Below, in pieces: positions 14,401 to 35,845 of a stretch of 40,128 nt of DNA. The first letter of the stretch is position 1. Each line of letters opens with the position of its first letter. The notes below the pieces were generated by a model. That model was not told where the DNA came from and did not search any database. It was given only the letters and a program-made list of their open reading frames with translations. Made by a program: the position numbers and the translations under genes. Location of the stretch: positions 1 through 40,128 of the forward strand of contig JANJTG010000101.1 in the NCBI GenBank assembly GCA_024711265.1, in the 5' to 3' direction. This DNA comes from Bdellovibrio sp. (GTDB lineage: Bacteria > Bdellovibrionota > Bdellovibrionia > Bdellovibrionales > Bdellovibrionaceae).

Positions 14401-17400
14401 TTATTGTATCTTCCTCACCAACGTTCCATTGCCGTCGATTACAAAGAAGCCCATTGGGCTATAGACCACGGAAAGAGGTTGAGAAAAGCGCGCCTGAGCG
14501 ACAGGAGCATCCGTTGAGGCAGATTCGAAAGAATTGCCCACGTAACTAGAAATGGTGGCGTCCGCCAAATTAACCCGTCTTAGAACATTCGCTTCATCAA
14601 CAATATACAAATACTTTCCATCATGGGTCACGTGAGTTGGATGCGCCAGGCGCGCCTCCGTAGAATTACCATCAGCATAATCACTTTGCCCTGCGACCCC
14701 CAAGACCGTCGCCACCGTGACACCGGTCTTTTTAAATTCAATCTTACGAAGTAAAGAATTAGCCCGTTCCACCACATAAAGATCACTTCCGAGGTACGTG
14801 ATCCCCGAGGGCTGATCGAAGGTGGCAAGACTTGCAGCTCCGTCCACAGAACCATAGGCTCCAGCGACTCCGGCCAAAGTTGTCGTTTGGTGACTGGTCA
14901 AATCGATCGCTCGGATCACGTGATTCATAGTATCTGTGATATAAAGACTTTTGCCATCCGTCGTGATGCGAGATGGATCATTAAAACGGACGACACTACC
15001 AGTACCGTCCTGATAACCACTGGTTCCAGAGTTTCCGGCAATAGTGCTCACCTCTCCGCTCTCCAGATTCAACCTTCTTACGCAATTTCCAGGAGCAGAT
15101 TCGACAACATAAAGATAAGGAGCAACATAAAGAACACCCGTTGGATTTCTAAATCTCGCAGACAAAGCCGAACCATCCGCACTGCCATGTTCATCTAGGG
15201 CCCCAGCTACAATCGTCTTTACTCCGGTTGAAGAAATTTTCCAGATCACTCCAGAAACTCCACCACTGACATACTGATCTGTTCCCACGACGGCGACATC
15301 AACAAAGCGGTTTGACTGCCAAACCGTCGTTCCATTTTTATTGCCCATCATCCGCGTAGTTCCGGCGACAGTCGAAGCGGTCTCCGAAGTCAGATCCAGT
15401 TTTCGAATCAAAGAATTCCCGGTATCAGAAACATATAAAACTCCCCCCTCAAAGAGGATCTGTGATGGAGAGTTAAAGGTTGCCACTGCGAAACTTCCAT
15501 TACTATTCCCTTCCGCACTTCCCGCCAAAGTAGTGACAACTCCGGAGTTGCCTAAATCCACCTTACGAATACGATGATTTGCGGAGTCCACCACGTAAAG
15601 TATAGAGGTTCCGTCAGAGGTGATCCCAAGTGGTGTATTAAAGCGTGCCGAAGCTCCCGTACCGTCATCGGACTCAGCTGATCCACTTTGACCGTCAACT
15701 CCAGCCACAGTGGTGACATTGCCTGAAATATCAATTTTCCGAATAGTGTGCGAAGTGGAATCCGTCACATAAAAGCCTTGATGAGCCCCCGTTGCAATAT
15801 ATGTAATTCCAGCGGGCGCCTTAAATCGCCCCGTCGAAGAGTCACCATCTGCATGACCCCACGTACTGCCCACAAATGTCGAAACCTCGGGCGCTCCGCC
15901 GACCAAGGGAGTTGCGATATCCGAGAAAGTCACTTTTCTAATTCGCGAGTTTGCAGCATCGGCAATATAGATGCTACTTCCTACGACCACAAGACCTCGA
16001 GGACCATTGAACTTGGCACCGCTTCCTGCCGCCGCCTGATTAAGAGAGCCCGCACTGCCAGCAACACCCGCAAGCAAAGTGGCCGTTCCCGCATCGTCAA
16101 TGTATCGTAAAGTATGAGCGTGGGCATCGACCGCAAACCACCCCCCAGCACCTCGCGCTAGGGCATCCACTTTTCGGTATTCGGCGGTATTAAGATCGCC
16201 ATCAAGCGTCCCATAAGCACCCACCTTTCCCGATAGAGAAGTCAGAAGATTGGTGGATAAGTCAATCTCCTTAATCTGAGTGAAGGATTCGTTAAATACT
16301 GCCAGCTTCGTACCGTTGATCCCAAGGCCTGTTGGGTTGCTCAACGTTGCTACGCTCCCCCAGTAGTCTTGAAGAATTGTCGAACTTGGTGCTAGCACGG
16401 TCACACCACTTCCAGTTCCAGTATCAATCCTGGTCAAGCGTGGAGACTGATCGCTTACATAGAGATCCGAACCATTGGCCATCAACCAACGAGGCGTACG
16501 GAACATCAGAGTAAGATCACTTCCATCCGCATGCCCATCGACACCTAACGAACCATAAACCGTTGTCACCACCGGATTTAACACATCTGTGATATCGATC
16601 TTCCTGATCACACTCGACAGACTGTCCGAGACATAGAGAGAGGTTCCGACCAAGGTTAATGAAAATGGTTGATTGAAGGTGCTTACAGCACCAAGACCAT
16701 CTCGACTTCCATAGCTAATGTGCGAACCAGCAAGCGTGGTAACTGTATATGGAGAAGCCGCCAAAACTCTTCGGATCTTTCTGTTTCCGGTGTCAGCAAC
16801 GAAAAGATTTCCGCTGCCATCTGCAACGATGTCGGTGGGACTATTAAATCTTGCTGAAGTTCCCGCCCCATCGTTAGCCCCTCTCAGCTCCGTAGAGCCA
16901 GCAATACTTGTAACAGTAGTGCCGGAAACTTTCCTAATCACAAAGTTCTCAGAGTCTACCACGTAGTAATTGGCCCCCGACTTCGCAATTCCTTTGGGCG
17001 AACTAAAATAGTTCGGATCAGAGGCAGAGCCACTGATGCCACAAGTCCCAACGAGTGTGCTTACTTCAGCCGTCAGAACATGAACCTTGCGTACGCAATG
17101 GTTATTTGTATCGACGACAATAAGATATCCCGAGTCCAGCAACATTCCGCCAATTTCATCGCTGAATCTGGCCTTATCACCAAAGTCATTATGATTCCCT
17201 GAAACATGGGGGCTCCCTGCTAAAAGAGAAATACTAGGAGCAGCCGGATTGGACATATTCATCTTATAGATTGCAGATCCTGCAGGAATATAAAGAAGCG
17301 TTCCATCCTGGACGGGTCGTCCCATGCGAGAAAGCACCCCGGAAGCACCCGCTTTAATCATCTGTGACGGATTTTCAACTCCAGAAATACGTTCGACATT

Positions 17401-17796
17401 TTTTAAAATCTGAAAAAATGATGACTTGGATTCCGTTGGACTTCCGGAGAGATCATATACAACAGCCTTAATCTGTGCTTTTTGAGTCCCCACGTCCGGA
17501 GCGGTAAACGTGTGCTGGCCAGCGCTGATCGATAACATTTGGACCAAGTCAAACGTTGTCCCATCTTGAGAAAAGTAAATCTCGATTGAAGACAGTTTGG
17601 TGTTGGTAGAAAGAGAGGAGAAGTCAACTTTAATGGAATCCGTATTAGCGCGGTAAATAGACTCTAAAGACTTGTCTATGGAGATTTCACGGGACGGCTC
17701 CACGGCAATACTTGACCCCGACTTTGCACAGGAGGTCACCAATCCCATCAAAGCGAGTAAAAGTAAAGTTCTAGGTACATTCCAAAACACTTCCAT
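14401..17796 (-). CDS. Large NHL-repeat beta-propeller lipoprotein
   Basis: Likely start MEVFWNVPRTLLLLALMGLVTSCAKS at 17796 (lipobox LVTSC). About 18 repeats of the type LYVxDxxNxxIRKI...VxTLAG...GxxDGxxxxAxFxxPxGI. Confidence 0.88.
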   Translation of the reverse strand: MEVFWNVPRTLLLLALMGLVTSCAKSGSSIAVEPSREISIDKSLESIYRANTDSIKVDFSSLSTNTKLSSIEIYFSQDGTTFDLVQMLSISAGQHTFTAPDVGTQKAQIKAVVYDLSGSPTESKSSFFQILKNVERISGVENPSQMIKAGASGVLSRMGRPVQDGTLLYIPAGSAIYKMNMSNPAAPSISLLAGSPHVSGNHNDFGDKARFSDEIGGMLLDSGYLIVVDTNNHCVRKVHVLTAEVSTLVGTCGISGSASDPNYFSSPKGIAKSGANYYVVDSENFVIRKVSGTTVTSIAGSTELRGANDGAGTSARFNSPTDIVADGSGNLFVADTGNRKIRRVLAASPYTVTTLAGSHISYGSRDGLGAVSTFNQPFSLTLVGTSLYVSDSLSSVIRKIDITDVLNPVVTTVYGSLGVDGHADGSDLTLMFRTPRWLMANGSDLYVSDQSPRLTRIDTGTGSGVTVLAPSSTILQDYWGSVATLSNPTGLGINGTKLAVFNESFTQIKEIDLSTNLLTSLSGKVGAYGTLDGDLNTAEYRKVDALARGAGGWFAVDAHAHTLRYIDDAGTATLLAGVAGSAGSLNQAAAGSGAKFNGPRGLVVVGSSIYIADAANSRIRKVTFSDIATPLVGGAPEVSTFVGSTWGHADGDSSTGRFKAPAGITYIATGAHQGFYVTDSTSHTIRKIDISGNVTTVAGVDGQSGSAESDDGTGASARFNTPLGITSDGTSILYVVDSANHRIRKVDLGNSGVVTTLAGSAEGNSNGSFAVATFNSPSQILFEGGVLYVSDTGNSLIRKLDLTSETASTVAGTTRMMGNKNGTTVWQSNRFVDVAVVGTDQYVSGGVSGVIWKISSTGVKTIVAGALDEHGSADGSALSARFRNPTGVLYVAPYLYVVESAPGNCVRRLNLESGEVSTIAGNSGTSGYQDGTGSVVRFNDPSRITTDGKSLYITDTMNHVIRAIDLTSHQTTTLAGVAGAYGSVDGAASLATFDQPSGITYLGSDLYVVERANSLLRKIEFKKTGVTVATVLGVAGQSDYADGNSTEARLAHPTHVTHDGKYLYIVDEANVLRRVNLADATISSYVGNSFESASTDAPVAQARFSQPLSVVYSPMGFFVIDGNGTLVRKIQ

Positions 17797-17904
17797 ATTT
17801 ATTTGTATTATCGGCATTTCATAAATAGACTTGAATGAAATAAGCTTAATGAGGGGGATACAAGGCCAGTCCTCCCAAACGCACCCCAACCAAGGGCTGA
17901 GAAA

Positions 17905-18144
17905 ATGATACCCCTGAAAGATCAACTCTCCCACATTCTGCAAGAACACTTTTCAGCTCTCGACACGACTCAACCTCTTTCCCACCAACTCAACAGCTTG
18001 CAAATGGTCTCACTGGTGGTTCTTATTGAAGAGTCGTTTCAGGTTAAAATTCATCCCTTAGAAATGACTTCTGAAAACTTTTCCTCGCTGGAAACGATGA
18101 GTAATCTTCTTCGCCGTAAAGGCATCAATACGGCGGAAAAATAA
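17905..18144 (+). CDS. Acyl carrier protein-like (ACP-1)
   Basis: 79 aa; HQLNSLQMVSLVVLIEESFQVKIHPLEMTSENFSSLETMSNLL, with NSL at the phosphopantetheine site (DSL in canonical ACPs). Confidence 0.75.
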   Translation: MIPLKDQLSHILQEHFSALDTTQPLSHQLNSLQMVSLVVLIEESFQVKIHPLEMTSENFSSLETMSNLLRRKGINTAEK

Positions 18145-19477
18145 ATATAAGACCCATCAAGAGATGCATTCCTAAGACTCCCCACCACCCCTTCAGCGTA
18201 GAGTCCGATGGCCAGAGTCCCGGAGCTTTTAAATAAAAATAGACCAAGATCGCCTGAAGAAGATGATGACAAACTCCCGTTAGCACTCGTCCGTGCAACC
18301 AATAATCCAGAGGTCGCTGAATTAATTCCACCAAGACCAATTCTACATGAATAAGGTAGGAAACCAAAAACGTGACTATAACGGCGATGAAGAGATTTTT
18401 CTTCCATTTGAACAATGGAAAGAAAACCAGGGTCTTCAACCACTCATAGTAGTAAGTGTTCCATCTCTTCCATCTTTCAAAGGGATTGGCCGCCAGAAGT
18501 GGCACATGGAATGGGTCAAACATATCAAATCCCAAAATCCGACAACAGCCAATCACCGTTAACAGAGCAATCATTGCATTTAGATAGGTGCTAAAATACA
18601 AGATATAGCCATGAAAGAAGTGATAGCTGAATCCCTCCCAGGGAAGAACCTTAGACATCTTCTGTCCCAGCCACATCGAAACCACTTGCAAAAGCACTGC
18701 TAGATAGAGATCTCGAAGCCCCTTCAGCAGCACCGAGCTTCGATGAGGTTGGCGGCTCAATTTCAAGAACTCACTCGATGTCAACGATGGTACTGCCGAA
18801 AAAAAATTCGCCGGGAAAAAAAGCTGTGCCCAAAAAGACCAAGATTTTAACGGCACCAAAGTCAGTGTTGAGTATCGCTCCGAGATTAATAGGATCATCG
18901 GCATCATGATCCTGAGAGGAAACCACAGAAATGGGACGGCATAAATTCGACCATCGGAGTACTCCGACGAGAACTGAGACCGTAAAAGAACTCCTCCAGC
19001 AATCAAAAAGAGAAAGAAAGTAATGGCTCGGACTGGAGGAACCTTCAAAAGAATGAGAGTCGCGGCGCACAAAGGCAATCCAATTTGAAAATAAAAAAAT
19101 GCCAAACTCCAACTTAAAGGGTGGGACACCTCCACTCTCCAAATGTGCCCCACATAAATGAATATCAAACATGCTAAGGCTGTTTTTGCTTTATCAAGGC
19201 TCAATGCGTGAGAGAAAAAACCGAAGATCAGAATGATAGAGACCAGATGAAACCGATCCGTGGGGCCAATCCAAATTCTCCACTGATTAAGAAAGTTGCC
19301 ATAAGTCTCTGGAGGAAAAATCAGTGAAAGATAAACCAAAATTCCGCATAAGAAGAAACAAAGAATCAACGACCCCAATGTGCTGGAATTATTTCTCACC
19401 ACAAAATCAACAAGCTCATTATTAAAATGAGTGATCTTATCTGTCACCCAAGAGGGAGAGCCTTTCTGGGTCGTCAT
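18125..19477 (-). CDS. Multi-pass membrane protein, divergent MBOAT-like (paralog A)
   Basis: 450 aa, hydrophobic; GFDMFDPFHVPLLAANPFERWKRWNTYYYEWLKTLVFFPLF parallels the canonical MBOAT segment in this window, GFEIPNNFSLPFFASSLSEFWRDWHSSLGRWMHDYVYRPLSF. Confidence 0.65.
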   Translation of the reverse strand: MTTQKGSPSWVTDKITHFNNELVDFVVRNNSSTLGSLILCFFLCGILVYLSLIFPPETYGNFLNQWRIWIGPTDRFHLVSIILIFGFFSHALSLDKAKTALACLIFIYVGHIWRVEVSHPLSWSLAFFYFQIGLPLCAATLILLKVPPVRAITFFLFLIAGGVLLRSQFSSEYSDGRIYAVPFLWFPLRIMMPMILLISERYSTLTLVPLKSWSFWAQLFFPANFFSAVPSLTSSEFLKLSRQPHRSSVLLKGLRDLYLAVLLQVVSMWLGQKMSKVLPWEGFSYHFFHGYILYFSTYLNAMIALLTVIGCCRILGFDMFDPFHVPLLAANPFERWKRWNTYYYEWLKTLVFFPLFKWKKNLFIAVIVTFLVSYLIHVELVLVELIQRPLDYWLHGRVLTGVCHHLLQAILVYFYLKAPGLWPSDSTLKGWWGVLGMHLLMGLIFIFPPY

Positions 19478-20980
19478 TTCCCACCAACCACCATCATTTT
19501 ACTTCAATCCCCAAATCTTTGTTGTTACGCTATTCTACAGAGGTTTTTGGTGAAATACGAGGCTATTCTTGGTGCGATAACAATCTCTCTCGCGTCCACT
19601 TTCTTACTGTGGTTTTGCGAAATTCCAGTCTTCTACATTGTGGGATTTGGAATATTTCTGCATTCCCTTCTTCCGCAACACCGCAAATCCATCATTGTTC
19701 TGATCTCATTGAGTTATCTCCTATTTGGAACGTCTTTTCTGCGGACCAATATCATTTGGTTCAGCTCAAGCCTTTCTGAGCACTTTCTTGTCCAGAATGT
19801 CTTTCGAATCCTTTTTATCCTAGGGGGCTCGTTTTTTACGATTTGGCTCACTCAAACAATCAAACATTGGGTTGCTCGCTTCAAATCTTTGACAGGCTTT
19901 GAGTTTTTCATTCTACTTTTCATGCGAATTCTATTGTTCATAGGCGTGAGCTTTATACCTGATAGGTCCTGGGCCTTCTTTTTTGTCGTCAATATTCTTT
20001 TGATGCACTCTTGGCAACTTTCCTTTGCCGGTTATGATTTTGTTTCTCCTGGGAAGTCTGCACAAAAGATCAAGGATCTGCTTTACCGTTTCAGTCCCCC
20101 CTGGGTTCTCGCCAGCTTCTTTTATGCAGCCACACCAAAAACGGAATCCTATTGGGAGCAAGTTCGGGCAAAAAACGATCAAGAACTCACGACCTGTCGT
20201 CAAAGCGCCCTGAAGCTGCTGCTGTGGGCATCCTTCCTTATGATCCTGACCAAGCTCATGTCTAATTTCTTTTATGAAGTGAACCGATATTCGAACTCGT
20301 TTTGGCATCTGCCACTTCACCACGATCTTCTGCCGTTATCTCAAGCTATTGAGCAAGTTCGATATCAAAAAGTAATTTTTGCGCCGGCAAAGGCCTGGCA
20401 GATTCTGACGACGGATTTCACTCTTCATCTATTGCAAATTTCAGTCTTTGGCCATGTCGTCATAAGTTTGGCACGCTTCTTTGGATTGAATGCCCCTAGG
20501 AATACTCAGAATCCTTTGGCCGCTGTTTCGATTTTGGATTTCTTCAGTCGTTACAATTATTATTACAAAGAATTTCTGCTGAATGTTTTCTACTATCCTC
20601 TCTTTTTTCGCTTTCATAAGCTTAAACTCAAAATTCGCATACTCATCTCGACAACACTTTCAATAGGGCTTGGCAACTACCTGTTTCTTTCTATCATGAC
20701 TCTTAGTTCACGCCCCTCCTCCAATATTCTGGCCAATGCTCAATCGACGCTACCTCTTCTTGTCTACTGCGCAGTTCTGACGATCTTCATTACCTACTCG
20801 CAGATCCTCAGTCTTCGCAACAATCCGAAAGCACAAAAGAGCTCTATTCCCAAACGACTTTTTAAGCTGAGCTATATTCTTCTATTCTACGCACTGCTAA
20901 GAGTTTTCGATCACTATTTCCTAGGGGATATTAAAGGGAATTGGGGGTTCTTTCTTATGCTATGGGGATTTCCATCATGA
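19427..20980 (+). CDS. Multi-pass membrane protein, divergent MBOAT-like (paralog B)
   Basis: SILDFFSRYNYYYKEFLLNVFYYPLFFRF is shared with paralogs A and C. GTG at 19550 after AGAGG is a possible true start, which would remove the overlap with the divergent gene. Confidence 0.65.
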   Translation: MSDLICHPRGRAFLGRHFPPTTIILLQSPNLCCYAILQRFLVKYEAILGAITISLASTFLLWFCEIPVFYIVGFGIFLHSLLPQHRKSIIVLISLSYLLFGTSFLRTNIIWFSSSLSEHFLVQNVFRILFILGGSFFTIWLTQTIKHWVARFKSLTGFEFFILLFMRILLFIGVSFIPDRSWAFFFVVNILLMHSWQLSFAGYDFVSPGKSAQKIKDLLYRFSPPWVLASFFYAATPKTESYWEQVRAKNDQELTTCRQSALKLLLWASFLMILTKLMSNFFYEVNRYSNSFWHLPLHHDLLPLSQAIEQVRYQKVIFAPAKAWQILTTDFTLHLLQISVFGHVVISLARFFGLNAPRNTQNPLAAVSILDFFSRYNYYYKEFLLNVFYYPLFFRFHKLKLKIRILISTTLSIGLGNYLFLSIMTLSSRPSSNILANAQSTLPLLVYCAVLTIFITYSQILSLRNNPKAQKSSIPKRLFKLSYILLFYALLRVFDHYFLGDIKGNWGFFLMLWGFPS

Positions 20981-21216
20981 TTGATTTTCAACCGCTGGAA
21001 CTAAAAATTTTGGAGCTGCTAAGTGAAAATGGACGCCCCGCTCACTTCGAGGCGGATCAATCTTTGTTCTTTAGTGGGCTCTTAGATTCCCTCTCGGCAA
21101 TTCGACTTTTGGTTTTTATTGAAGAGACCTATCAGTTCAATCCTCCAAGTGATTTTAATATCCGCCAGATTGATTCTTTCAATAAAATCAAAGCCCTTCT
21201 AACTCCTTCAAGTTAG
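20977..21216 (+). CDS. Acyl carrier protein-like (ACP-2)
   Basis: ATGA overlap with the upstream stop; LFFSGLLDSLSAIRLLVFIEETYQFNPPSDFNIRQIDSFNKI with canonical DSL. Confidence 0.82.
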   Translation: MIDFQPLELKILELLSENGRPAHFEADQSLFFSGLLDSLSAIRLLVFIEETYQFNPPSDFNIRQIDSFNKIKALLTPSS

Positions 21217-22736
21217 TGCAACTCCCTCAAGAACAGATTAACGCTAGCTCCAGGAGATAGCTTCAACTTTTCAGACAAAATCAGAACACCCTGCTTGTGG
21301 GATAAGGGCACTTGGGGGCTCTTGGAGTTCAACTGTTCTCCCAAGGAATCCACCCCTGCCGCATTCAAACTTAATGTCATAAACTGCGCCAGCGCCTTTC
21401 TATAATTTGAATCATTGAAGCCAGAAAGATCCTCAAGTGGAGCTAAATAGAAATAGTAAGCGCTCGGAACTCCCCCCATCCAACCAGTTCCCCACATCTG
21501 GATTTTTCCTTTTTTGATGGCCCCTAGAAGTTCCGCCGGCTCTAAAACTTCTACCTGAAGATCAAGATCTATATTTTTAAATGAGGCTTGAAACCAATCC
21601 GCCACCTTCTTCGATTCCGGGGCCGCAACTAATGCCATCTTAATCTTTTTCAGTTTGATTTTTCTTCTTAAGTTCTGAGCCCATTTTCTATCACAGGAAG
21701 GCGAGGGCGTTTCATCCCTCGGCTCAAGCCCCCTAGGAACCAAACGTCGCGCCGGTACAGCCATGGTGAGGTATAAGTTCTTAATCAACTCCTCACGATC
21801 TAAGCAAGACGAAATCAACTCTTTCAGCGGCAAGTAAGAATCTCGGATGCCCTTATCTGCAAAATTGAAGGCAAGATAGCTTGTTTCTAGCAAAGGGTAC
21901 TCATGTCGAGTGACCTTCTGCATCTCTTTCAACGTTTGCAACGCACTCTGGCTTTCGACTTGAATCCAGTCCGATTCTCCTTGTTTAAATTTTTGAACTC
22001 TTTCATCTTCTGACTTCAAAACCTCTAACTTTAAAATCTTAGGTTTCTTTCCCCTACTCGAAAACTTCAGAAAAGGATCGCCTAACGAAGAGGTCAAAAT
22101 ATAGGCTCCCGTACCAACCGGCCCCTTGCTCAGGCCCAAACTTCCCTCCACCACTTCACGCGGCACAATCGCCAATGCAATAGCACTGAAGAGCTCTGCA
22201 ACAGGGGCAAATTGATTCTTGAAATTAATACGAACAGTATAGTCCCCCTGGGCAGTCAGGCCTTCTACAGGTTCAGAATAATCCGCCTTTGGCTTGTTTT
22301 TTTGGCGATTTCGCCATTCATCTAGGCCCACAATCATATTTTCAAGATACCTAAAGCCAGGAGATGCATTTTGTGGAGCCGCGATTCGTTTGATAGAGGC
22401 AATGACGTCCGATGCGGTCATCTCACGACTTAAACCCGCCTCACCAACTGCAGATTTGAAGTGAACGCCCTTTTTTAGTGATATCTGATAGACTTTCCCG
22501 TCCTCTGTGACGGGGGGAGCCTCTGCCAAGGTCGGAACCACTTTCCAAGTCCCGTCATATACCGGAGTATAGAGAGTATCATAAACCAGTCTTAAGATTT
22601 GCTCTCCTTCGAGATCGACGATGTAAATAGGGTCAAAGCTATTGGGTTTGGCCTCAATGAATCCCCGGTAATCTATATGATCTTTTTTGGTACAACCACC
22701 GACAATCAAAAGCGCGACCAGTAATAACTTTCTCAT
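21213..22736 (-). CDS. Extracellular solute-binding protein family 5 (peptide/oligopeptide ABC) lipoprotein
   Basis: Lipobox LLIVGGCTK; ILRLVYDTLYTPVYDGTWKVVPTLAEAPPVTEDGKVYQISLKKGVHFKSA...MTASDVIASIKRI. No permease or ATPase genes nearby. Confidence 0.85.
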   Translation of the reverse strand: MRKLLLVALLIVGGCTKKDHIDYRGFIEAKPNSFDPIYIVDLEGEQILRLVYDTLYTPVYDGTWKVVPTLAEAPPVTEDGKVYQISLKKGVHFKSAVGEAGLSREMTASDVIASIKRIAAPQNASPGFRYLENMIVGLDEWRNRQKNKPKADYSEPVEGLTAQGDYTVRINFKNQFAPVAELFSAIALAIVPREVVEGSLGLSKGPVGTGAYILTSSLGDPFLKFSSRGKKPKILKLEVLKSEDERVQKFKQGESDWIQVESQSALQTLKEMQKVTRHEYPLLETSYLAFNFADKGIRDSYLPLKELISSCLDREELIKNLYLTMAVPARRLVPRGLEPRDETPSPSCDRKWAQNLRRKIKLKKIKMALVAAPESKKVADWFQASFKNIDLDLQVEVLEPAELLGAIKKGKIQMWGTGWMGGVPSAYYFYLAPLEDLSGFNDSNYRKALAQFMTLSLNAAGVDSLGEQLNSKSPQVPLSHKQGVLILSEKLKLSPGASVNLFLRELH

Positions 22737-22854
22737 GGAACCCCTTTTGGACCTTCATTTTGAAGAGGAGGCTTGATGTCATAAAAGCGTCTATGCTAAC
22801 TTAATAGACATCACTGCTTGTTTATCAACGAATTATAAATGACCGGGGGTTTCT

Positions 22855-23481
22855 TTGAAACCACAAAAATGGATCTTTATTTCTTTTCTCATCTCGAGCC
22901 TCTGGGGAAACCTCGCGGTCTTTGCACAATATCCAGCCGTTGATGGACCTCCAACTCCGGACACTCTGAAGACCTCCCTCCGTTCCATCGGCGGCTTGAG
23001 CATCTATGCGTACGTCTCGTTACCTAGCTTCATGGGACGCATCCAAAATGCACCGGCCAGTTATATCAGCGAAAAAAATCCGCTCTCAACTCATACCACC
23101 CTTCTTGGCTATCAGTGCCTTGAAGAGCAAATGAAGGCCGTTGCGGACAACTTTGGTTCATCAGGGCTGAAGGAGCAATTCAAAAAACAGGCGGTTTCCA
23201 CCGTCAACTTCATGCTCGTTGTGGTGCGAGGAAGCGTCATTGATGCCAAACTTTGCACTCCCCATATTGCAGTCTTTGAAAAAACAGCTAACATCATCAC
23301 TTGTTTTAATGGTCAACTAGCCCCAACTCCGAACCTAAAAAACAACTGCAAGCTTCTATCCAAGTCCGGTATGGCTACATATGCAAAAGCCCTCCAGGAT
23401 CTTGAGAATCAAAGAGGACCACTTAAGTCTTCTATCCTGAAAACCGCGAATGATTTGCTCGAGAAGATGAAAACCAACTAA
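22855..23481 (+). CDS. Secreted hypothetical protein
   Basis: TTG start at 22855; signal peptide KPQKWIFISFLISSLWGNLAVFAQ; 208 aa. Confidence 0.65.
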   Translation: MKPQKWIFISFLISSLWGNLAVFAQYPAVDGPPTPDTLKTSLRSIGGLSIYAYVSLPSFMGRIQNAPASYISEKNPLSTHTTLLGYQCLEEQMKAVADNFGSSGLKEQFKKQAVSTVNFMLVVVRGSVIDAKLCTPHIAVFEKTANIITCFNGQLAPTPNLKNNCKLLSKSGMATYAKALQDLENQRGPLKSSILKTANDLLEKMKTN

Positions 23482-23491
23482 AGGGATCATT

Positions 23492-24550
23492 ATGAGAATA
23501 TTCCGCCCGGTACGTTCTTTATGGAAAACAGGTCTCCCTCTTCTGGGGATGTTTCTCTTCGCGCAAAGTGGAATGGCTCACCCATATAACATTGGTGCCT
23601 TTTGGAAGTTGGGTGATGCGCAACCTCCTAGCTGCACGATCTCAACCTCAATTTCCGGCTGGAGAAATAACGCCTCTGAGACTATCAACTTCACCTGCAC
23701 GGACAATAGGCTTATCTATCAAATTCTTTGCAGCGTGAATGGAGGCGCATGGGGCACCTGCACAACGTCAACAAGTCACACGATCTCCGGCCTTACAAGC
23801 AATACAACAACAACGTTCCAGGTTAAGTCCATCGATACCTTCAACAATGAAAGCGTTGTCACCGCCGCAGAAACACGCACATGGAGCACGGATCTTCTTG
23901 CTCCGACGATTGCGACACTGACTCCCTCAGCCACAAATACCAGTGCTCCCAGCTTCACGTTTACCGGTGCCGACACGGGAGGAAGCGGCGTGGCCTCTTA
24001 TCAGTGCTCTCTGGATACCGGAACGGCAAGCTTCACTGCCTGCACAAGCCCGCGCGCCGGGGCAGGTCTTGTTGCCGGAACAACTTACTACTTCCGCGTT
24101 CGCTCCATTGACGTCGCCGGTAATGTTGGCAGCTTTTCGTTTGTCACCTGGACAAATGGCGGCTGGACAGCTTTCGGAAGCTGCTCGGTCAGTTGTGGCG
24201 GAGGACTCCAATACCGCACTTGCACCAATCCTTCACCAAGCGTCAGCCCCCCCGGAATGCCCTGTGCCGGTTCCAACAGTCAAAGCTGTAACACCTTCCC
24301 CTGCTGTACCGCCGCCCATTACACCACCAATATGTGTGCAGGATACCAATACTATCATCGCTACTCCTACGGAACTTGCGCCATGGACGGGGGACAATGT
24401 CCAGGCTCCACAAGTTACGGAGCCTCAAATCCTTACATTGGGGGCACGTCAACCATGTCCTGTAGAAGCGGTAGCGCCCATGCTGTCTCCGTCTACCAAG
24501 ACGGTTGCTCAAAAGGTTGCGCTTGCATTGTTTTATGCCAATGCAACTAG
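23492..24550 (+). CDS. Secreted multidomain protein: Ig/FN-like repeats, thrombospondin type 1-like repeat, Cys-rich C-terminus
   Basis: Signal peptide followed by repeats ending in TxFQVKSID.../TYYFRVRSIDVAGNVGSFSFVTW, then GWTAFGSCSVSCGGGLQYRTCTNPSPSVSPPGMPCAGSNSQSCNTFPCC and a further Cys-rich tail. Confidence 0.8.
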   Translation: MRIFRPVRSLWKTGLPLLGMFLFAQSGMAHPYNIGAFWKLGDAQPPSCTISTSISGWRNNASETINFTCTDNRLIYQILCSVNGGAWGTCTTSTSHTISGLTSNTTTTFQVKSIDTFNNESVVTAAETRTWSTDLLAPTIATLTPSATNTSAPSFTFTGADTGGSGVASYQCSLDTGTASFTACTSPRAGAGLVAGTTYYFRVRSIDVAGNVGSFSFVTWTNGGWTAFGSCSVSCGGGLQYRTCTNPSPSVSPPGMPCAGSNSQSCNTFPCCTAAHYTTNMCAGYQYYHRYSYGTCAMDGGQCPGSTSYGASNPYIGGTSTMSCRSGSAHAVSVYQDGCSKGCACIVLCQCN

Positions 24551-26166
24551 GACCTGACGACACCCGCTTATTTAACGATCAAATCTTCACCCTGGGAAGC
24601 CTTCGGTTCCTCAGGGGCAGTTTCGTCGCGAATTACCTCAGTTCCACGAAAGAGCATGGTCACTTACCATTTATTACCGTCTTCGAACAAAAAACGATAA
24701 TAAAGAAGACCTATCAAGAGTTTCACAAGGACGTCCTTTGCGCCGCCTCGCACATTCGCTCTCATCTCAAAGATGAAAAAACGGTCGTCCTTATTGGCGG
24801 AAACTCCTACCTGCTCAGTGTCTACATCGTTGCAACACTTCTTCTAGGAAAAACCTTGTGCCCCCTTAATCCCGCTGAGGGCTGGACAAGACTGACCAAG
24901 AAGATTCTGCAGCTGAACGAAAATACTCTGGTCTTCCATGCCCCCTCCAATACACCGCCCGAGGGACTGAAAGCTCTCCGCATGACTCTAGAGCAGAAAG
25001 TCCCTTCCTTTGATATTTCATCGCTGAACCTTGAACTGCGTGAGGACTCAAGCCCGCTGATTCTGATTTTTACCAGCGGAACCACGGGGTATTCAAAAGT
25101 TGTCATGCAAACTGAAAAGAACATTCTAAGTAATGTCGACGCACTGATAGAGCACCATGAACTTTTCAAAAAGAAAACCATCCTCACTCCCTTGCCTCTT
25201 TTCCACGTCAACGCTTTGGAGTTTTCATTCTTCTGTACTTTATTTTCCGGTGGTCAACTGATCCTTTTAGAAAATGCAGAACCTTTTTTACTCAAGGAAG
25301 CACTTCTTCACCAGAAGGTTCACATTTTAAGTATTCTGCCTCCGATCATCAAAATTCTTCATTTCATGAAAAATCAATTTCAAGAACCCCTTCGTCAGGT
25401 CGACTATGTCGTGTCGGCGGCGGCTCCCCTTTCTGTAGAGCTGGCGAAGGCCTTCTTTGCTGATTTTTCAGTACGAATTATTCAAGGTTACGGACTATCC
25501 GAAGCAGTCAACTTTTCCGCCGTTATGCCTATTCAGGTTTCCGATGTCGACTATGAAGAAATGATGTTTCATCATGGATTCCCCTCCATCGGAAAATCCC
25601 TTCGCGGCAACCATATTGATATTCTTAAAGAGGACGGTTCTTTAGCGGGAGCTCAGATCCCCGGCGAAATTTGCATTCGCGGGCACAACGTAATGAATAG
25701 CTACAAAGACATCGCTCCGGAAGTATTGTTTAAGGACGGATACCTCCACACCGGAGATCTGGGATTTTACCTGGAAAAAGAGGGTGAAAGATTCTTTTTT
25801 ATATCTGGACGACTCAAGGACGTCATCAAACGCTTCGGAGAATCTGTTTCTTTGCGTGAAGTCGACGACCTGGTGAACACATTCGCATTCCCTGATTTTG
25901 ATGCCATTGCCGTTCCTTTTGAAAATGACTATGCGGGAGAAGAGATCGGACTCGTCGTCAAAGGCAATCCTCAACTTCAGACTCAGCCAGAGACTTTTCG
26001 CGAGCACCTCCAACAAATGCCCGTCTTCCTGCGCCCTAAAATCATCATCTTTACAGACGAAAGTATACGAACTCCCAGCGGAAAACCCTGCCGATGGCAG
26101 TTCAACCATCTCTTCAAATCATTTAAGGCAAAAGCCATTGGCGTCTCCCCGTCATTTCATATATAA
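24535..26166 (+). CDS. AMP-dependent acyl/aminoacyl synthetase (ANL superfamily)
   Basis: LILIFTSGTTGYSKVVMQTEKN, LPLFHVNALEF, QGYGLSEAVNFS, GEICIRGHNVMNSYKD, DGYLHTGDLGF, ISGRLKDVIKRFGESVSLREVD, TPSGKPCRWQF. Start 24535 or 24541. Confidence 0.93.
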   Translation: MPMQLGPDDTRLFNDQIFTLGSLRFLRGSFVANYLSSTKEHGHLPFITVFEQKTIIKKTYQEFHKDVLCAASHIRSHLKDEKTVVLIGGNSYLLSVYIVATLLLGKTLCPLNPAEGWTRLTKKILQLNENTLVFHAPSNTPPEGLKALRMTLEQKVPSFDISSLNLELREDSSPLILIFTSGTTGYSKVVMQTEKNILSNVDALIEHHELFKKKTILTPLPLFHVNALEFSFFCTLFSGGQLILLENAEPFLLKEALLHQKVHILSILPPIIKILHFMKNQFQEPLRQVDYVVSAAAPLSVELAKAFFADFSVRIIQGYGLSEAVNFSAVMPIQVSDVDYEEMMFHHGFPSIGKSLRGNHIDILKEDGSLAGAQIPGEICIRGHNVMNSYKDIAPEVLFKDGYLHTGDLGFYLEKEGERFFFISGRLKDVIKRFGESVSLREVDDLVNTFAFPDFDAIAVPFENDYAGEEIGLVVKGNPQLQTQPETFREHLQQMPVFLRPKIIIFTDESIRTPSGKPCRWQFNHLFKSFKAKAIGVSPSFHI

Positions 26167-26174
26167 AAAAGGAG

Positions 26175-27641
26175 ATGACGGTGATTCCGAAGCTAGAGAC
26201 AAACCAACGCCTTATCGAGTTCAGCCAGACCGTCGTCGGACAAGCGGGGCTCTTGGGACTCTTTGCCGTCGGACTATTTCTTATGAAGGTGCCCAGTTGG
26301 ATCTTCATCACAATAGTGCTCTTGGCACTTCAATTCGGCGCAAATTATAAGAAGTGGATCTTGCTTCTTGCCTCTTTCAGTGCCGCCATCTTCTATATGC
26401 GACTTGATTTTGAACTTATCAGTTCATTTGCAAGCAAAGTTCACGCTTCTTTACCCATCGGATTCACTCCATATCGTATTGTCATCCTCATCTTAGTTAT
26501 TTTCACTGGTCTTTTGATCCTAAAGCCCAAGGATCGACGCTGGCCCTTTCGTAGCAAGCATCCCGTTTTAGCACTCGCCATCTTCTTTAACCTGTCGGTC
26601 CTCGCAGCCATCTCACTTCCCCTCGAGGCACACTCCGCCACCTTTTATTGGTCTTTCCTTTTGGTTTTCGGGAATTACTTTTGGTTTTTTGCCTACGCCC
26701 TGAAGGATCAACTTCATCACCGGCGGGAATTTGATTTTTTTGATTTCAGTTTTGCCCGGGCGTACTGGTCTGGTTCTTATCGGATTCCACTTCATACGGG
26801 GCCTCAGGCATTGGCAACGAATGAAGCCCATGACACTCAGACCTACACCATCCTGAAGATCAAAGCCCTGAAGCTTCTATACTGGTCATTTATTTTAAAG
26901 CATGTCGCAGATCTTTTTCATTATTTCCTATTTGGAAAGTTTGAATGGTTGCCTTGGGACATCACACTTCCCACCCTGGCGGTCAACAAAGACCAACTCA
27001 GTCTTTCACATATCAATCAGCTTGATTGGAAGGTTTGGCAATATTGGGCTTTTATGCTTTGCACCTATGTACTCTATCAGATGAAAATTACCTACATCGG
27101 AAATACCCTGATTTCCGTTGCACGAATGTCGGGCTTCTACCTTTATCGCGTGTCCCATAGGCCTTTGAAAGCTCGTTCCTTGGCTGACTTCTTTCGTCGC
27201 ATTCACTACTACTACTATGAAGTCATAAAAACATTTTTCTTCTATCCCACCCTTTCCCGATTTTTTAAAAAACAGCGCCGGTTGCGACTTTTTTTCGCAA
27301 CGTTCATCGCCATTTTTGTTGGCGGCGGAATTCAAGTTCACTTTTTTTCTCATCCCGAAGTCTATGTGGGATACAGCCTTTATGAGGCCCTCCTGCGATG
27401 GCTGCCCGCCGGGATCTATCATATTTTATTTGGCTTATTTCTAGGCTTTTCAATGGTCCACGAAATTGATCTCCAAAATAAGAACACACCACTCCTTTTG
27501 GAAAAACTGCGCCTCGTCGTCATTGCTGTGATTTATATCTGGCTGCTGAGCTGGATCATTACCTGGGGACCGGAATGGCCTAAGGCCTCCATCTCCGAAC
27601 ACCTCACTTATTCAGGTCGCCTTCTTGGGTTGAATCTATGA
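26175..27641 (+). CDS. Multi-pass membrane protein, divergent MBOAT-like (paralog C)
   Basis: SLADFFRRIHYYYYEVIKTFFFYPTLSRFFKKQRRLRLFFATFIAIFVGGGIQVHFF is shared with paralogs A and B. Confidence 0.65.
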   Translation: MTVIPKLETNQRLIEFSQTVVGQAGLLGLFAVGLFLMKVPSWIFITIVLLALQFGANYKKWILLLASFSAAIFYMRLDFELISSFASKVHASLPIGFTPYRIVILILVIFTGLLILKPKDRRWPFRSKHPVLALAIFFNLSVLAAISLPLEAHSATFYWSFLLVFGNYFWFFAYALKDQLHHRREFDFFDFSFARAYWSGSYRIPLHTGPQALATNEAHDTQTYTILKIKALKLLYWSFILKHVADLFHYFLFGKFEWLPWDITLPTLAVNKDQLSLSHINQLDWKVWQYWAFMLCTYVLYQMKITYIGNTLISVARMSGFYLYRVSHRPLKARSLADFFRRIHYYYYEVIKTFFFYPTLSRFFKKQRRLRLFFATFIAIFVGGGIQVHFFSHPEVYVGYSLYEALLRWLPAGIYHILFGLFLGFSMVHEIDLQNKNTPLLLEKLRLVVIAVIYIWLLSWIITWGPEWPKASISEHLTYSGRLLGLNL

Positions 27642-27649
27642 AAGGTTAG

Positions 27650-29704
27650 ATGAATAAAGGCACACGGCACCCACTCTTATTTCAACCCCTTCAGGTAGGT
27701 TCGCACACCCTGCGAAATCGCTTCGTTATGGGGTCCATGCATACAGGTCTCGAAGATCTAAATGATTGTTTTGAGCGTCTCACAGAGTTTTACCGCCTCC
27801 GCGCCGAAGAAGGCGCCTCCTTGATTGTCACAGGGGGTATTTCTCCCAATATAACGGGAACGTATACGGGAGCCGCAACGCTCAATGATGAATCTCAAAT
27901 AGCCTCCCACCGAAAGCTCACGACTTCGATCCGAAAACACGGCAGCCTTATCTGCATGCAAATTCTTCATTTAGGAAGATACGCAAACCACAATCAAGCC
28001 GTTGCTCCCTCGGCCTTACGCTCGCCCATTTCCCCGGTGCGCCCCCATGCTATGACTGAGTCCGAAATATTAGAAACCATATCGGATTACGTTCACTGTT
28101 CTGAACTTGCACGACGCGCCGGATATCATGGTGTTGAGATAAATGGTGCCGAAGGATTTCTTATAAGTCTGTTTTTTAGCCCCGCAACCAATCTCCGCGT
28201 CGACAAGTGGGGCGGTTCCTTAGCAAACCGACTGCGCTTCGCAAAGCAGATCGTGGAGGGCATTCGAAGACAGAACGGCCCGGATTTCCTGATCATCTTT
28301 CGACTTTCTATTGTGGACTTTATCGAAAGTGGAATGCGTTGGGAGGAAGTCGTTGGGATCGCTCAAGATCTGGAGAAGAATGGAGTTGATATATTTAGTA
28401 CGGCTATTGGCTGGAATGAATCAAAAATTCCTACGGTATCGTCGCTAGTTCCTCCGGCCGTCTTCGCTGGTATTGTGGGAGCATTTAAAAAGCAGGTCTC
28501 CATCCCAGTCATTGCGAACCATCGTATCCATCATCCCAACGAGGCCGAACACATTCTTCAAGCTGGACAAGCGGATCTTATTTCAATGTCACGCCCCTTC
28601 CTGGCAGATCCCTATTTCGTCAAGAAGACACAAGAAGGACGCTCTGACGAAATCAACCTCTGCATTGCCTGCAACCAATCTTGTCTTGATAGGGCCTTTG
28701 CTTACTCGACTTCTCAAGATAATATTGTTTCGTGCCTGGTAAATCCGTTCGCTTGCCATGAAACACTATGGACTTGGGAGACCCATCCGCAACACGGCAA
28801 AATTGCCGTCGTCGGGGCCGGCCCTGCAGGATTGGTCGCCGCTCGAATTCTGGCCCAACGAGGGTTTTACGTCACTCTTTTTGAGGCTTCGCCAAATGTA
28901 GGCGGCCACTTTCGATTGGCGCAAAAGATTCCGTCAAAGTTCGACTATCAAAAAACCATTGCATACTTTGAAGCCGAACTTCATCGGTGCGGAGTTAAAG
29001 TCATCACAAGCAAATGTCCCAGTGCCGAAGACCTGCTGATCTATGATCATGTTTTTGTCGCAACGGGGGTTCATCCTGCAAAATCTCCTTTTGTCCAATC
29101 TCCCGATGCCCGCGTGATGTCATACGCGGATCTACTTCTAAATGAGCCACTGCTGGGAAATAATATTGTTGTCATCGGCGGCGGAGGCATTGGAATGGAT
29201 GTCGCTGAGTACTTAACCTGCAATCAGCATCTAGACCAAAAAACAAGGTTTTTCAAAACCTGGGGCATTGATGAAAGCTTGAAAGCTCCGGGAGCTTTAA
29301 TACCACCACAGCCTCCCTCCTCTCCTCGCAAAGTGTGGATTCTAGAAAAAGAAAAAGGACTGATTGGTCGGGGCCTCGGACGCACCACCGTGGCCCATCG
29401 CCGAGACCTCCTTCAGCGAAATGGCGTCGTCGTATTAACGGGCGTTCAAGACCTCATGCTGACGGATCGAGGTGTCAGCTTTTATGTCGAGGGGCAACTC
29501 AAAGAGTTAACCGCCGATCAGGTGATTCTTTGCAATGGCGTCGAAAGAGATTCCGAGACCCCAAGACTGCTTCTTCAAGATCAGATTCCGTTCTCGTTGA
29601 TCGGCTCAGTCTCTGGGACAGAAATAAGAAATGCCGCAGATTCAATCCGACATGCAATGGAAGTGGCAATTCAGTTTAAATTAGATAGAAAAAAGGTAAA
29701 GTAA
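27650..29704 (+). CDS. NADH:flavin oxidoreductase / 2,4-dienoyl-CoA reductase-like (FMN barrel, Fe-S cysteines, FAD/NAD domain)
   Basis: N-terminus LFQPLQVGSHTLRNRFVMGSMHTGLED; Cys cluster CIACNQSCLDRAF...VSCLVNPF; IAVVGAGPAGLVAARILAQRGFYVTLFEA and NIVVIGGGGIGMDVAEYL. Confidence 0.92.
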   Translation: MNKGTRHPLLFQPLQVGSHTLRNRFVMGSMHTGLEDLNDCFERLTEFYRLRAEEGASLIVTGGISPNITGTYTGAATLNDESQIASHRKLTTSIRKHGSLICMQILHLGRYANHNQAVAPSALRSPISPVRPHAMTESEILETISDYVHCSELARRAGYHGVEINGAEGFLISLFFSPATNLRVDKWGGSLANRLRFAKQIVEGIRRQNGPDFLIIFRLSIVDFIESGMRWEEVVGIAQDLEKNGVDIFSTAIGWNESKIPTVSSLVPPAVFAGIVGAFKKQVSIPVIANHRIHHPNEAEHILQAGQADLISMSRPFLADPYFVKKTQEGRSDEINLCIACNQSCLDRAFAYSTSQDNIVSCLVNPFACHETLWTWETHPQHGKIAVVGAGPAGLVAARILAQRGFYVTLFEASPNVGGHFRLAQKIPSKFDYQKTIAYFEAELHRCGVKVITSKCPSAEDLLIYDHVFVATGVHPAKSPFVQSPDARVMSYADLLLNEPLLGNNIVVIGGGGIGMDVAEYLTCNQHLDQKTRFFKTWGIDESLKAPGALIPPQPPSSPRKVWILEKEKGLIGRGLGRTTVAHRRDLLQRNGVVVLTGVQDLMLTDRGVSFYVEGQLKELTADQVILCNGVERDSETPRLLLQDQIPFSLIGSVSGTEIRNAADSIRHAMEVAIQFKLDRKKVK

Positions 29705-29708
29705 TTCT

Positions 29709-30926
29709 ATGGAAACACGCAGAGTCGTCATAACAGGAATCGGATCAATTTCGGCAATTGGTCTGAATACAAAAGAATTTTGGCACTCCGTCTGCAACGG
29801 ACAAGGTGGAATAGCCCCCATGACAACTCTACCTCATGATCAAATAAAATGCCGCTACGGAGCTGAGATCAAAGGCTATGATCCACAACAACACTTTACA
29901 GCTTCGCAACTGACAGTTTACTGGCGCAACTCCCAACTTCCTATCATCGCGGCTCGTGAGGCCATTGCCGATTCGGGCATCGACTTTAAAACCAAAGATC
30001 CCTTTGAATCCGGCATCCTCATGGGGTCAACGAGCACGCAAGGCGTGGAAGAAGAAGATTTTTTTAAACGCTATTATGAGACCGGCAGCAAGCGAGTTCA
30101 TCCTCTCACATTAGTTCACCACATGCGCGGAGGCCTTATCCATGAGATCGCTTCCGAGTATAATATCCACGGCCCCGGATTTATCATGGATAGCGCCTGC
30201 TCCAGTGCACTTTTGGCAATCGGAGAAGCCTTTCAGATGATTCGTTATGGTCGACTCAATTATGCCATTGCCGGCGGAGGAGAATGCCCCTTCGGAATCA
30301 CCCACTGGAAAGCCTGGGAACAGATTGGCGCACTTTCTCCTGACATGTGTCGTCCCTTTAGCAAAGAACGAAACGGAACGATCTTAGGCGAAGGCGCAGG
30401 GGTTTTTGTCTTAGAGTCCCTGGACTCCGCCAAAAAAAGATCTGCAAAAATTTATGCGGAGGTTCTCGGTTTTGCCAGTAGCCGTGATGCGGAAGATCTC
30501 ACCAGGCCTTCGTTGGAGCGAATTACTCAAACCATTGAACTCTGCCTGAAAGATGCCAAGCTGAGTAAGGCCGAATATGACTACATCAGCGCCCACGGCT
30601 CCGGAACTCTCTTAAATGACGTGGTGGAGACCAAGGCGATTAAAAGAGTGTTTGGGTCTCATGCTGAAAATCTTGCCATTTCGTCCACCAAAGCAATGCA
30701 TGGACATTTAGAGTTCGCGACCGGAGCCCTAGAGCTTGTAGGAGCCGTCTTGGCCATAAAAGAAGGGGTTCTGCCTCCTACTCTCAACTATCTCTCTGCG
30801 GATCCTGATTGCGATCTTGATTATGTTCCCAATCACGCGCGCGAAAAGAAAATCAAAGCCGTATTGAAAAATTCATTTGGCTTTGGCGGGGCTAATGCTG
30901 TTTTATCTTTGAAGAACTACTCTTAA
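29709..30926 (+). CDS. Beta-ketoacyl-ACP synthase (KAS II/FabF-like)
   Basis: C-H-H triad visible: DSACSSALLAIGEAF, ISAHGSGTLLNDVVETKAIKRVFG, SSTKAMHGHLEFATGALELV; C-terminal NSFGFGGANAVLSL. Confidence 0.94.
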   Translation: METRRVVITGIGSISAIGLNTKEFWHSVCNGQGGIAPMTTLPHDQIKCRYGAEIKGYDPQQHFTASQLTVYWRNSQLPIIAAREAIADSGIDFKTKDPFESGILMGSTSTQGVEEEDFFKRYYETGSKRVHPLTLVHHMRGGLIHEIASEYNIHGPGFIMDSACSSALLAIGEAFQMIRYGRLNYAIAGGGECPFGITHWKAWEQIGALSPDMCRPFSKERNGTILGEGAGVFVLESLDSAKKRSAKIYAEVLGFASSRDAEDLTRPSLERITQTIELCLKDAKLSKAEYDYISAHGSGTLLNDVVETKAIKRVFGSHAENLAISSTKAMHGHLEFATGALELVGAVLAIKEGVLPPTLNYLSADPDCDLDYVPNHAREKKIKAVLKNSFGFGGANAVLSLKNYS

Positions 30927-30940
30927 GACGTCCGATATCT

Positions 30941-31198
30941 CTAGCCAGTCTTTAATTCCCGAATTCTTTTTTCGGTCAGTTGAATGAGTTCCCCGAAATT
31001 ATTTAATGCTTCAATCTCCGCCAAACTAAAGCGAATCTGAAATTCTTTTTCAATCGAAGTAATCAAAACAACATGCATCAACGAGTCCCATCCCGGAACA
31101 TCCATGGCGGTCATTTCATTTCGAAGAACTAATTTCGGATCCGCAAACAGACTGCGAAATATCCGCTCAATCTTCAAACGAATTTCTGGGGAAGCCAC
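30941..31198 (-). CDS. Acyl carrier protein-like (ACP-3)
   Basis: 85 aa; MDVPGWDSLMHVVLITSIEKEFQIRFSLAEIEALNNFGELIQL with DSL. Confidence 0.86.
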   Translation of the reverse strand: MASPEIRLKIERIFRSLFADPKLVLRNEMTAMDVPGWDSLMHVVLITSIEKEFQIRFSLAEIEALNNFGELIQLTEKRIRELKTG

Positions 31199-31645
31199 TC
31201 AAACACCTCCCGTATTGGCTTCTACGTAGGCTCGGACAAAATCATCCTGATTTCCATTTTTCACAATAAATCGGACCTGACAAGCCAACTCCTCACCAAC
31301 GTAAATAGAACCCGAAAACTCAAAGGCTTGGAGAACCTCAGATTCTTTCTGGATCTTCAAAAGGCAGACGTCTGTTGGTTTTATCATTCTATAGAAATTT
31401 GCCGATCGAATCGAAAGCAGAACAGGAAAAATCTTGGCATCTTTACTGCGAAGGCAATGCGTCGCCAATTGCGCTAAAAGCTCAACCTGGATAACTCCCG
31501 GCAAAACGGGATAGTTTTCAAAGTGATCCCTAAAGAAAAACTCCGTTCCCGTGAAGCGATACTCGCTCTGAGCCAAAACTCCGGGTTCACAGAATAGAAT
31601 CTTTCCTTCAAATTTAAACGACATCAGATTCCTTTGTCCCTTCAT
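31199..31645 (-). CDS. FabZ-like 3-hydroxyacyl-ACP dehydratase
   Basis: FFFRDHFENYPVLPGVIQVELLAQLATHCL (catalytic His and Glu positions of the FabZ/FabA motif). Alternative start 31624. Confidence 0.85.
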   Translation of the reverse strand: MKGQRNLMSFKFEGKILFCEPGVLAQSEYRFTGTEFFFRDHFENYPVLPGVIQVELLAQLATHCLRSKDAKIFPVLLSIRSANFYRMIKPTDVCLLKIQKESEVLQAFEFSGSIYVGEELACQVRFIVKNGNQDDFVRAYVEANTGGV

Positions 31646-32802
31646 TCATTCAAAGCCGACTGAACTTTTTGAGCAAGCAAAATGTTAAACCTCTGCCGAG
31701 CCTCTTCCCTCAGATGCAAGATGTCGATGAAATCATCCTTTCCAAAACCGGAATCCCCCGAGAAATCCCAAATGGGGGCCGGGGCCTGCGCCCTGATTTC
31801 ATCAAAGGCCGCCTCATAACGAGCACGCGCCGCCATGGTTCTTCCTCCCGATAACGGAAACTCCGGCGGAACTATATAGATCATTTTTTTAGAAATTCGC
31901 TGAAGAATTTTCGCAATCTCGATATTTTCTTGAATCATTTTTTGACTGAATCTCAACTCCGAAAAGTCGTACATTTCATTGTGCCAATCCAGACTGCTAG
32001 AGTAGAAATCAAACCCGCCCCGACGCCCCCACTCAATCAAGCGCTGAAACTCCTTTTTTCCATCCGGGAAGTTGAAATAGAATTCACCTCTCTTTTCCTT
32101 ATCCCAGGCCGGAAATGTATTGAGCGTGTGATTAATCCAAAGTCGTCGGTAGTAATTTAAAGAAATACGCCGTTCAACTGGATAGATCTTTCTTTTGAAG
32201 ATCGCAGAAGAAAACGAAGTCGAATACCCCGTCAACGCCACCTTGGACAAGAGAGCCTCAGTCAGAACTTCCGGGTGCGGCCACAATTCTTTCATCAGGG
32301 TCCCGGCATCGATAAGATCGGAGATTGTATCCAGACGGAGCTTTTCACTTTGGCTTTCATACTTCAAGGTTGCAAAGTACGGCGTAAAGCGAAACAGCAC
32401 CAGATCCAACTTCTTTCCATTTCTTTGCATCTCTGTCTCTAAACGCTTCGCCAACAGATGCAAAACGTCAGGTCCCAAAAATCGAAAACCAAAATTGTAG
32501 GCTTTCACGGTCGTCCCCTGTCGTTGCAGTTCCGATTCAAGGAGCGTTGGTGCAAAGTCCACCTCCAGATCCGAGTTTCCAAAGGCAAGAACAGCCGGTG
32601 TCGGATCGCGAGCAATGTCAGGAATAGCTTGAACCGCCGAATCCAATCGGACTTTGACCCAAGGTTCCTGTCCCTCCAAAACAATCTTCGATACAAGGAC
32701 CTTGCTCAAAAGAAAAAAGCCCAATAAGGCGAAGGCCCAAAGAATATATTTTTTAGAACTGTAGGTAGACAAAAGCAGCCCCCGGTTCCGTAAAGAGAAC
32801 AT
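31642..32802 (-). CDS. Membrane-anchored SGNH/DltD-like protein
   Basis: N-terminal TM; AVLAFGNSDLEVDFAPTLLESELQ (GxS block), YNFGFRFLGPD, C-terminal DFIDILHLREEARQRF (DxxHL block); adjacent to an MBOAT gene as in DltB/DltD and AlgI/AlgJ systems. Start may be internal to 32802. Confidence 0.68.
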   Translation of the reverse strand: MFSLRNRGLLLSTYSSKKYILWAFALLGFFLLSKVLVSKIVLEGQEPWVKVRLDSAVQAIPDIARDPTPAVLAFGNSDLEVDFAPTLLESELQRQGTTVKAYNFGFRFLGPDVLHLLAKRLETEMQRNGKKLDLVLFRFTPYFATLKYESQSEKLRLDTISDLIDAGTLMKELWPHPEVLTEALLSKVALTGYSTSFSSAIFKRKIYPVERRISLNYYRRLWINHTLNTFPAWDKEKRGEFYFNFPDGKKEFQRLIEWGRRGGFDFYSSSLDWHNEMYDFSELRFSQKMIQENIEIAKILQRISKKMIYIVPPEFPLSGGRTMAARARYEAAFDEIRAQAPAPIWDFSGDSGFGKDDFIDILHLREEARQRFNILLAQKVQSALNE

Positions 32803-35626: not shown

Positions 35627-35845
35627 TTGAATGCCTTCAAAAAAGAGTTTCCCAACATTCCCGAGATTCAACTTGAAGATAACTTCAAAGATTTAAACTT
35701 TGATTCTCTTTTGCGCGTTCGCCTTCTTTTTATGTTGGAAGAAACATTCAACGCGGACTTCTCCGCACTGAATCTTCACGAATGCAACTCCCTTGCTGAA
35801 GTCATAGATCGTGTATTAACTCAAATCGGTAAAGCAGAGGGCTAA
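35627..35845 (+). CDS. Acyl carrier protein-like (ACP-4)
   Basis: TTG start; LEDNFKDLNFDSLLRVRLLFMLEETFNADFSALNLHECNSLAEVIDRVL; stop/start overlap TAATG with the FkbH gene. Confidence 0.85.
   Translation: MNAFKKEFPNIPEIQLEDNFKDLNFDSLLRVRLLFMLEETFNADFSALNLHECNSLAEVIDRVLTQIGKAEG

Follow-up and report, generated by a model that had tools for sequence, protein, structure and literature searches.

Two divergent MBOAT-derived protein families in Bdellovibrionota, with candidate membrane acyltransferases that lack the bacterial tyrosine shuttle

In a 40,128-nt stretch of Bdellovibrio sp. DNA (the window; contig C131 of a 3.36-Mb assembly in 552 contigs), three genes, A, B, and C, encode membrane proteins that almost certainly descend from MBOAT acyltransferases. 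Judged by their sequences, B and C are one family and A is a member of a second. We propose, with a probability of roughly 0.55 for the scheme as a whole, that C and probably A are membrane acyltransferases fed by carrier proteins and that B is a non-catalytic paralogue. The novelty lies in two MBOAT-derived families without the bacterial shuttle and is not categorical. Overlooked by standard libraries, the two families are additions at the edge of the MBOAT superfamily, in which the MBOAT core is separated from the tyrosine shuttle and SGNH relay known for bacterial MBOAT pathways. Relatives with and without the invariant histidine are natural material for probing its role, and a candidate new kind of terminal membrane transferase marks a fatty-acid-synthase-like cluster of Bdellovibrio-like bacteria.

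Table 1. Features of the window, in order of position
Feature	Position	Strand	Remarks
Protein built of NHL-like repeats	14401-17949		1182 aa
Weak ACP-like ORF	17905-18144	+	79 aa with an NSL motif; converges on A; PF00550 E=0.004, under the Pfam threshold
A, divergent MBOAT-derived membrane protein (A family)	18125-19477	-	450 aa; His377 at 18347-18349
B, divergent MBOAT-derived membrane protein (B/C family)	19550-20980	+	476 aa; Leu at the catalytic histidine position
Secreted protein with thrombospondin type 1 domain	23492-24550		PF00090
AMP-binding acyl ligase	24505-26166	+	8-bp gap to C
C, divergent MBOAT-derived membrane protein (B/C family)	26175-27641	+	488 aa; His389 at 27339-27341
OYE-type flavin enoate reductase	27650-29704	+	8 bp downstream of C
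FabF-like ketosynthase	29709-30926	+	4-bp gap after the OYE gene
Acyl carrier protein (ACP)	30941-31198	-	PF00550
FabZ/FabA-like dehydratase	31199-31645	-	L061 counterpart (42% identity) adjoins the C-type gene
SGNH/DltD-like protein	31642-32802	-	Unmatched in the libraries; assigned by its sequence and its place beside M1; homologue by a canonical MBOAT in L162
M1, canonical MBOAT (in-window comparison)	32753-34147	-	WH, GAWHG, C-terminal FVYLQF
MaoC-like dehydratase fused to SDR ketoreductase	34144-35478	-	
FkbH-type enzyme, ACP, amino acid--[ACP] ligase-like protein, DltB-like MBOAT	35845-40128		MBOAT truncated by the contig end

All three ORFs are intact, and the places that an earlier note had given them (18125-19477, 19427-20980, and 26175-27641) are borne out with one correction. 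The ORF of B listed from 19427 (517 aa) probably starts at GTG 19550, 6 nt upstream of which lies AGAGG. With this start, the 51-bp overlap of A and B would be an annotation artefact, and the two genes would be divergent with ~70 bp between them. GC content over A and B (18001-22000) falls to 42-44% from ~47%, for which membrane-protein composition or horizontal transfer is possible. A simple scan found 7-10 hydrophobic segments in A, B, and C, the MBOAT fold having 8-12 transmembrane helices round a funnel. In Pfam and NCBIfam scans, no model matched the three proteins; among 20 aligned family members, none passed the Pfam MBOAT cut-off and NCBIfam likewise made no MBOAT call. Searching PDB sequences with the B/C and A profiles returned matches at chance level only.

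BLASTP aligned B with C over 174 residues (E=1.6e-17) and, over the segment quoted in the earlier note, A with C (1.6e-6), with M1 (3.7e-6), and with B (5e-5). M1 carries LSEFWRDWHSSLGRWMHDYVYRPL and GAWHG; the aligned segments and the replacements of GAWHG (VSYLIHVEL, GLGNYLFLS, and GGGIQVHFF) stand in the translations as that note quoted them. In profile-profile comparisons with 14 canonical MBOATs, the B/C profile (18 members) scored 98.8% probability (P=4e-17, 204 columns) and the A profile (11 members) 96.0% (176 columns), while the two family profiles matched each other at 97.7%. These alignments superpose motif on motif and histidine on histidine over the canonical MBOAT core. Controls, run with earlier, smaller profiles, gave <1% for reversed canonical profiles; with block-permuted ones, A reached at most 6%, while for B/C one of 20 came to 90% and the next to 35%. 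In this profile test, unrelated membrane proteins scored at most ~20 bits, far below MBOATs. The BLASTP values, together with profile scores above the reversed and permuted controls, uphold the proposed relatedness of A, B, C, and canonical MBOATs over this segment, extreme as their overall divergence from MBOATs is. When 369 genomes of the phylum were scanned with the B/C profile, strong or fair family members appeared in 13, and canonical MBOATs were next best in more than 100 further genomes, mostly at the shared segment, which is the behavior expected of a divergent MBOAT branch. The suggestion of an unrecognized MBOAT-derived subfamily therefore holds as to its being unrecognized and MBOAT-derived, but there are two families rather than one of three.

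An AlphaFold model of C with three homologues reached pLDDT 44; a second, for which C was aligned with A and B, two relatives, and the canonical MBOATs of the window, reached pLDDT 54. In fold searches, the latter, biased by the canonical MBOATs in its alignment, had DltB (E=0.055), DltB again, and HHAT as its top PDB matches, none significant; for the former, free of canonical MBOATs in its alignment, DltB ranked second and its TM-score was close to the highest listed, again not significant. These weak models agree with the sequence result without proving an MBOAT fold. A convergent hydrophobic sequence on another fold would explain the absence of Pfam and PDB sequence matches and of significance in the fold search. 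Such convergence is nevertheless very improbable given a match that spans 176-204 columns and sets histidine on histidine, the low scores of unrelated membrane proteins and of all but one of the reversed and permuted controls, and the place of DltB and HHAT at the top for the better model, biased though its alignment is.

An invariant histidine is common to MBOATs, together with a second residue that can be His, Asn, or Asp (PMC12979248); this second active-centre residue lies 30-50 residues upstream of the first (PMC5831804). In the B/C family, histidine is best conserved in the column that matches the histidine of GxWHG; this column is occupied by histidine in 9 of the 18 members, His389 of C among them, and by Arg in the members from genomes G279 and G309. 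His377 of A aligns with the same histidine, and the column is kept in 7/11 A-family members, the four exceptions being one group. A six-member alignment had placed A among proteins without a conserved histidine, a result overturned by the 11-member alignment. B has Leu at this position, and its two nearest relatives have Thr and Asn. B and two proteins from G092 cluster with moderate support; all three of these B-type proteins lack the histidine and have in common an Asn four residues before it. As to the upstream residue, C has His344 (45 upstream of His389), A has Asn340 (37 upstream of His377), and B has Asn377; the column is variable across both the B/C and A families. The catalytic histidine, which the earlier note supposed to be shifted or missing in at least one protein, is missing in B, while in A and C it is aligned rather than shifted, and the homologue alignment that the note had called for gives the conservation counted above. 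By sequence, B is an MBOAT homologue but is not classed as an MBOAT enzyme, since it has no invariant histidine; its best reading is a paralogue that has lost the histidine and would be a pseudoenzyme or have altered chemistry.

In bacterial MBOAT-SGNH systems, the acyl group passes to the tyrosine of a C-terminal FxYxxF motif or of DltX, and then to an SGNH protein (PMC12148441). M1 has this arrangement of C-terminal motif and neighboring SGNH-like gene along with WH and GAWHG, and most complete canonical MBOAT neighbors end in a similar FxYxxF motif. None of the A- and B/C-family relatives listed has a C-terminal FxYxxF, a search for a DltX-like ORF beside C found none, and the SGNH-like gene, both in the window and in locus L061, is the neighbor of the canonical MBOAT rather than of A, B, or C. 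With DltB-DltX-DltD, PatA-PatB, and AlgI, the three proteins share the core R..GF..P..A.S..F..R, A and C also share the histidine at the GxWHG place, and the carrier-protein genes near A, B, and C recall DltC. Unlike MBOAT-SGNH systems, they have neither the FxYxxF tail nor a direct SGNH partner gene; a YYY-rich stretch replaces WH, the first motif of canonical MBOATs; and, unlike canonical bacterial MBOATs, they are invisible to the Pfam MBOAT model.

We found 18 B/C-type and at least 11 A-type members, and the taxonomic survey that the note had suggested shows a patchy spread within Bdellovibrionota. No relatives of C were found in the viral contigs and plasmids searched, and literature searches on MBOATs with ketosynthase clusters, or with Bdellovibrio, returned nothing relevant.

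C-type genes are found within clusters of the type-II fatty-acid/polyketide-like kind. In the window, the run of ligase, C, OYE, and ketosynthase genes faces, convergently, the genes for the ACP, the FabZ-like, SGNH-like, and M1 proteins, and the MaoC-SDR fusion. In L061, from a different family of the same order, a single tightly packed run contains the genes for the ligase, the C-type protein, the FabZ-like and SGNH-like proteins, and a canonical MBOAT, and so links the window's two convergent runs. Other C-type loci (L053, L056, L058, L059, L062, L063, and L064) hold ketosynthase, chain-length-factor-like, SDR, ACP, or ligase genes in varying sets. All nine His-bearing B/C members lie near ketosynthase, KSIII, or ligase genes, as against 2/8 His-less members with readable context (one-sided Fisher p ~0.002, calculated by hand and ignoring shared ancestry). 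Next to M1's run, the last part of the window (35845-40128) looks like a Dlt-like system in which an aminoacyl-tRNA-synthetase-like loading enzyme replaces DltA.

The window's ligase has close homologues in 6/369 genomes. Five of these genomes also have the B/C family (p=1.4e-7), four of them with the ligase and B/C genes within one cluster. In the sixth (G123, locus L162), which has no B/C family, an acyltransferase-3 gene (PF01757, 1.9e-18) overlaps the ligase gene by 28 bp, in a slot equivalent to that of the C-type gene of L061, which overlaps its ligase by 25 bp. This acyltransferase is unrelated to C in sequence family and, from its position, plausibly does the same job. G123 also carries a canonical MBOAT and SGNH-like pair, so the swap suggests that the C-type gene has a separate enzymatic job. 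We consider this exchange for an unrelated membrane acyltransferase the best functional hint.

A-family genes have neighbors of their own: ACP genes beside or near them in L139, L142, L161, and L165, fatty-acid desaturase genes in L055, L067, L141, L161, and L165, and PLP decarboxylase genes in L067, L140, L141, L142, L164, and L165. A-type genes adjoin B-type genes at two loci, the window and L055; in G229, ~12 kb separate an A-type gene from a remote B/C-type one. The A and B/C families co-occur beyond chance (p=2.6e-5).

From these arrangements we infer acyl transfer from ACP to a lipid by C, and a partnership of B with A. The ligase, ACP, and fatty-acid-synthase-like enzymes would build an acyl thioester on the carrier protein, and C would accept the acyl group where an MBOAT-like pore opens to the cytoplasm. 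By means of His389, C could then pass it straight to an acceptor in the membrane, probably a lipid, working without the C-terminal tyrosine shuttle or SGNH relay of canonical bacterial MBOATs. A would act likewise with its own carrier protein, and B, its histidine lost, is most likely non-catalytic, a paralogue retained as A's partner. Several points count against this scheme: the structure models are poor, sequence divergence is extreme, the histidine is absent in half of the B/C family, the second active-centre residue varies, and the A-B pairing comes from two adjacent loci. Like the lipid-acylating MBOATs DGAT1, ACAT, and MBOAT7, C is proposed to acylate its membrane acceptor directly, with no tyrosine shuttle; these enzymes use acyl-CoA, whereas the donor proposed for C is acyl-ACP, and no sequence similarity to them was detected.

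We also weighed other functional readings. Both families may be MBOAT-fold pseudoenzymes, acting as scaffolds, channels, or regulators of the cluster's canonical MBOAT-SGNH pair, much as HHATL has been proposed to do for HHAT, with their histidines as remnants. Canonical MBOAT and SGNH-like genes are indeed present in the window and L061 clusters, the histidine is gone in 9/18 B/C and 4/11 A members, and HHATL, a mammalian MBOAT-like protein, has the same His-to-Leu change as B, which likewise stands alongside His-bearing relatives. B, however, is bacterial and from another family, and an HHATL-like regulatory role for it would be an analogy. Moreover, the stretch read of several C-type clusters (L053, L058, L059, L062, and L063 among them) shows no canonical MBOAT, every His-bearing B/C member lies near FAS-type genes, and G123 has the acyltransferase-3 in place of a C-type gene despite its own MBOAT and SGNH-like pair. 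We therefore regard pseudoenzymes throughout as unlikely.

About equally doubtful is a reading in which the histidine has been lost repeatedly and His-less B would work together with His-bearing A, the pair acting as a transferase or a flippase. Such a bacterial pseudo-MBOAT system may use a different reaction, for instance one based on Asn, in view of the Asn that the three B-type proteins share. Less probable still is that C exports or flips the cluster's lipid-like product instead of acylating; a polytopic membrane protein within a biosynthetic cluster, from a family that has lost active-centre residues and has no Tyr shuttle, could do so, but the acyltransferase-3 replacement in G123 and the retention of the histidine in members from FAS-type clusters argue against this.

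Several further groups came to light in these loci. Remote B/C relatives in L060 (8551-9606), L135 (8751-9902), and L138 (1309-2397) adjoin a single-span protein that is conserved, and some also have a radical-SAM-like gene nearby; L135 and L138 represent a second neighborhood type without FAS genes. HTTM-type (vitamin K carboxylase-like) and small membrane proteins occur in L054 (2201-3528), L056 (15371-16822), and L162 (10282-11711), where the HTTM-type proteins adjoin C-type genes or the ligase. In L015 and L043, and also in L071 (2683-3942), MBOATs with otherwise canonical motifs have GLWNG or GCWNG for GxWHG, the catalytic His being replaced by Asn. A third divergent MBOAT-like group (L065, 8354-10912; L070, 8706-18194; L072, 8066-14042) matches canonical MBOATs at 96.2% and has ACP, ligase, PLP decarboxylase-like, and canonical MBOAT genes as neighbors, sometimes with two copies per cluster.
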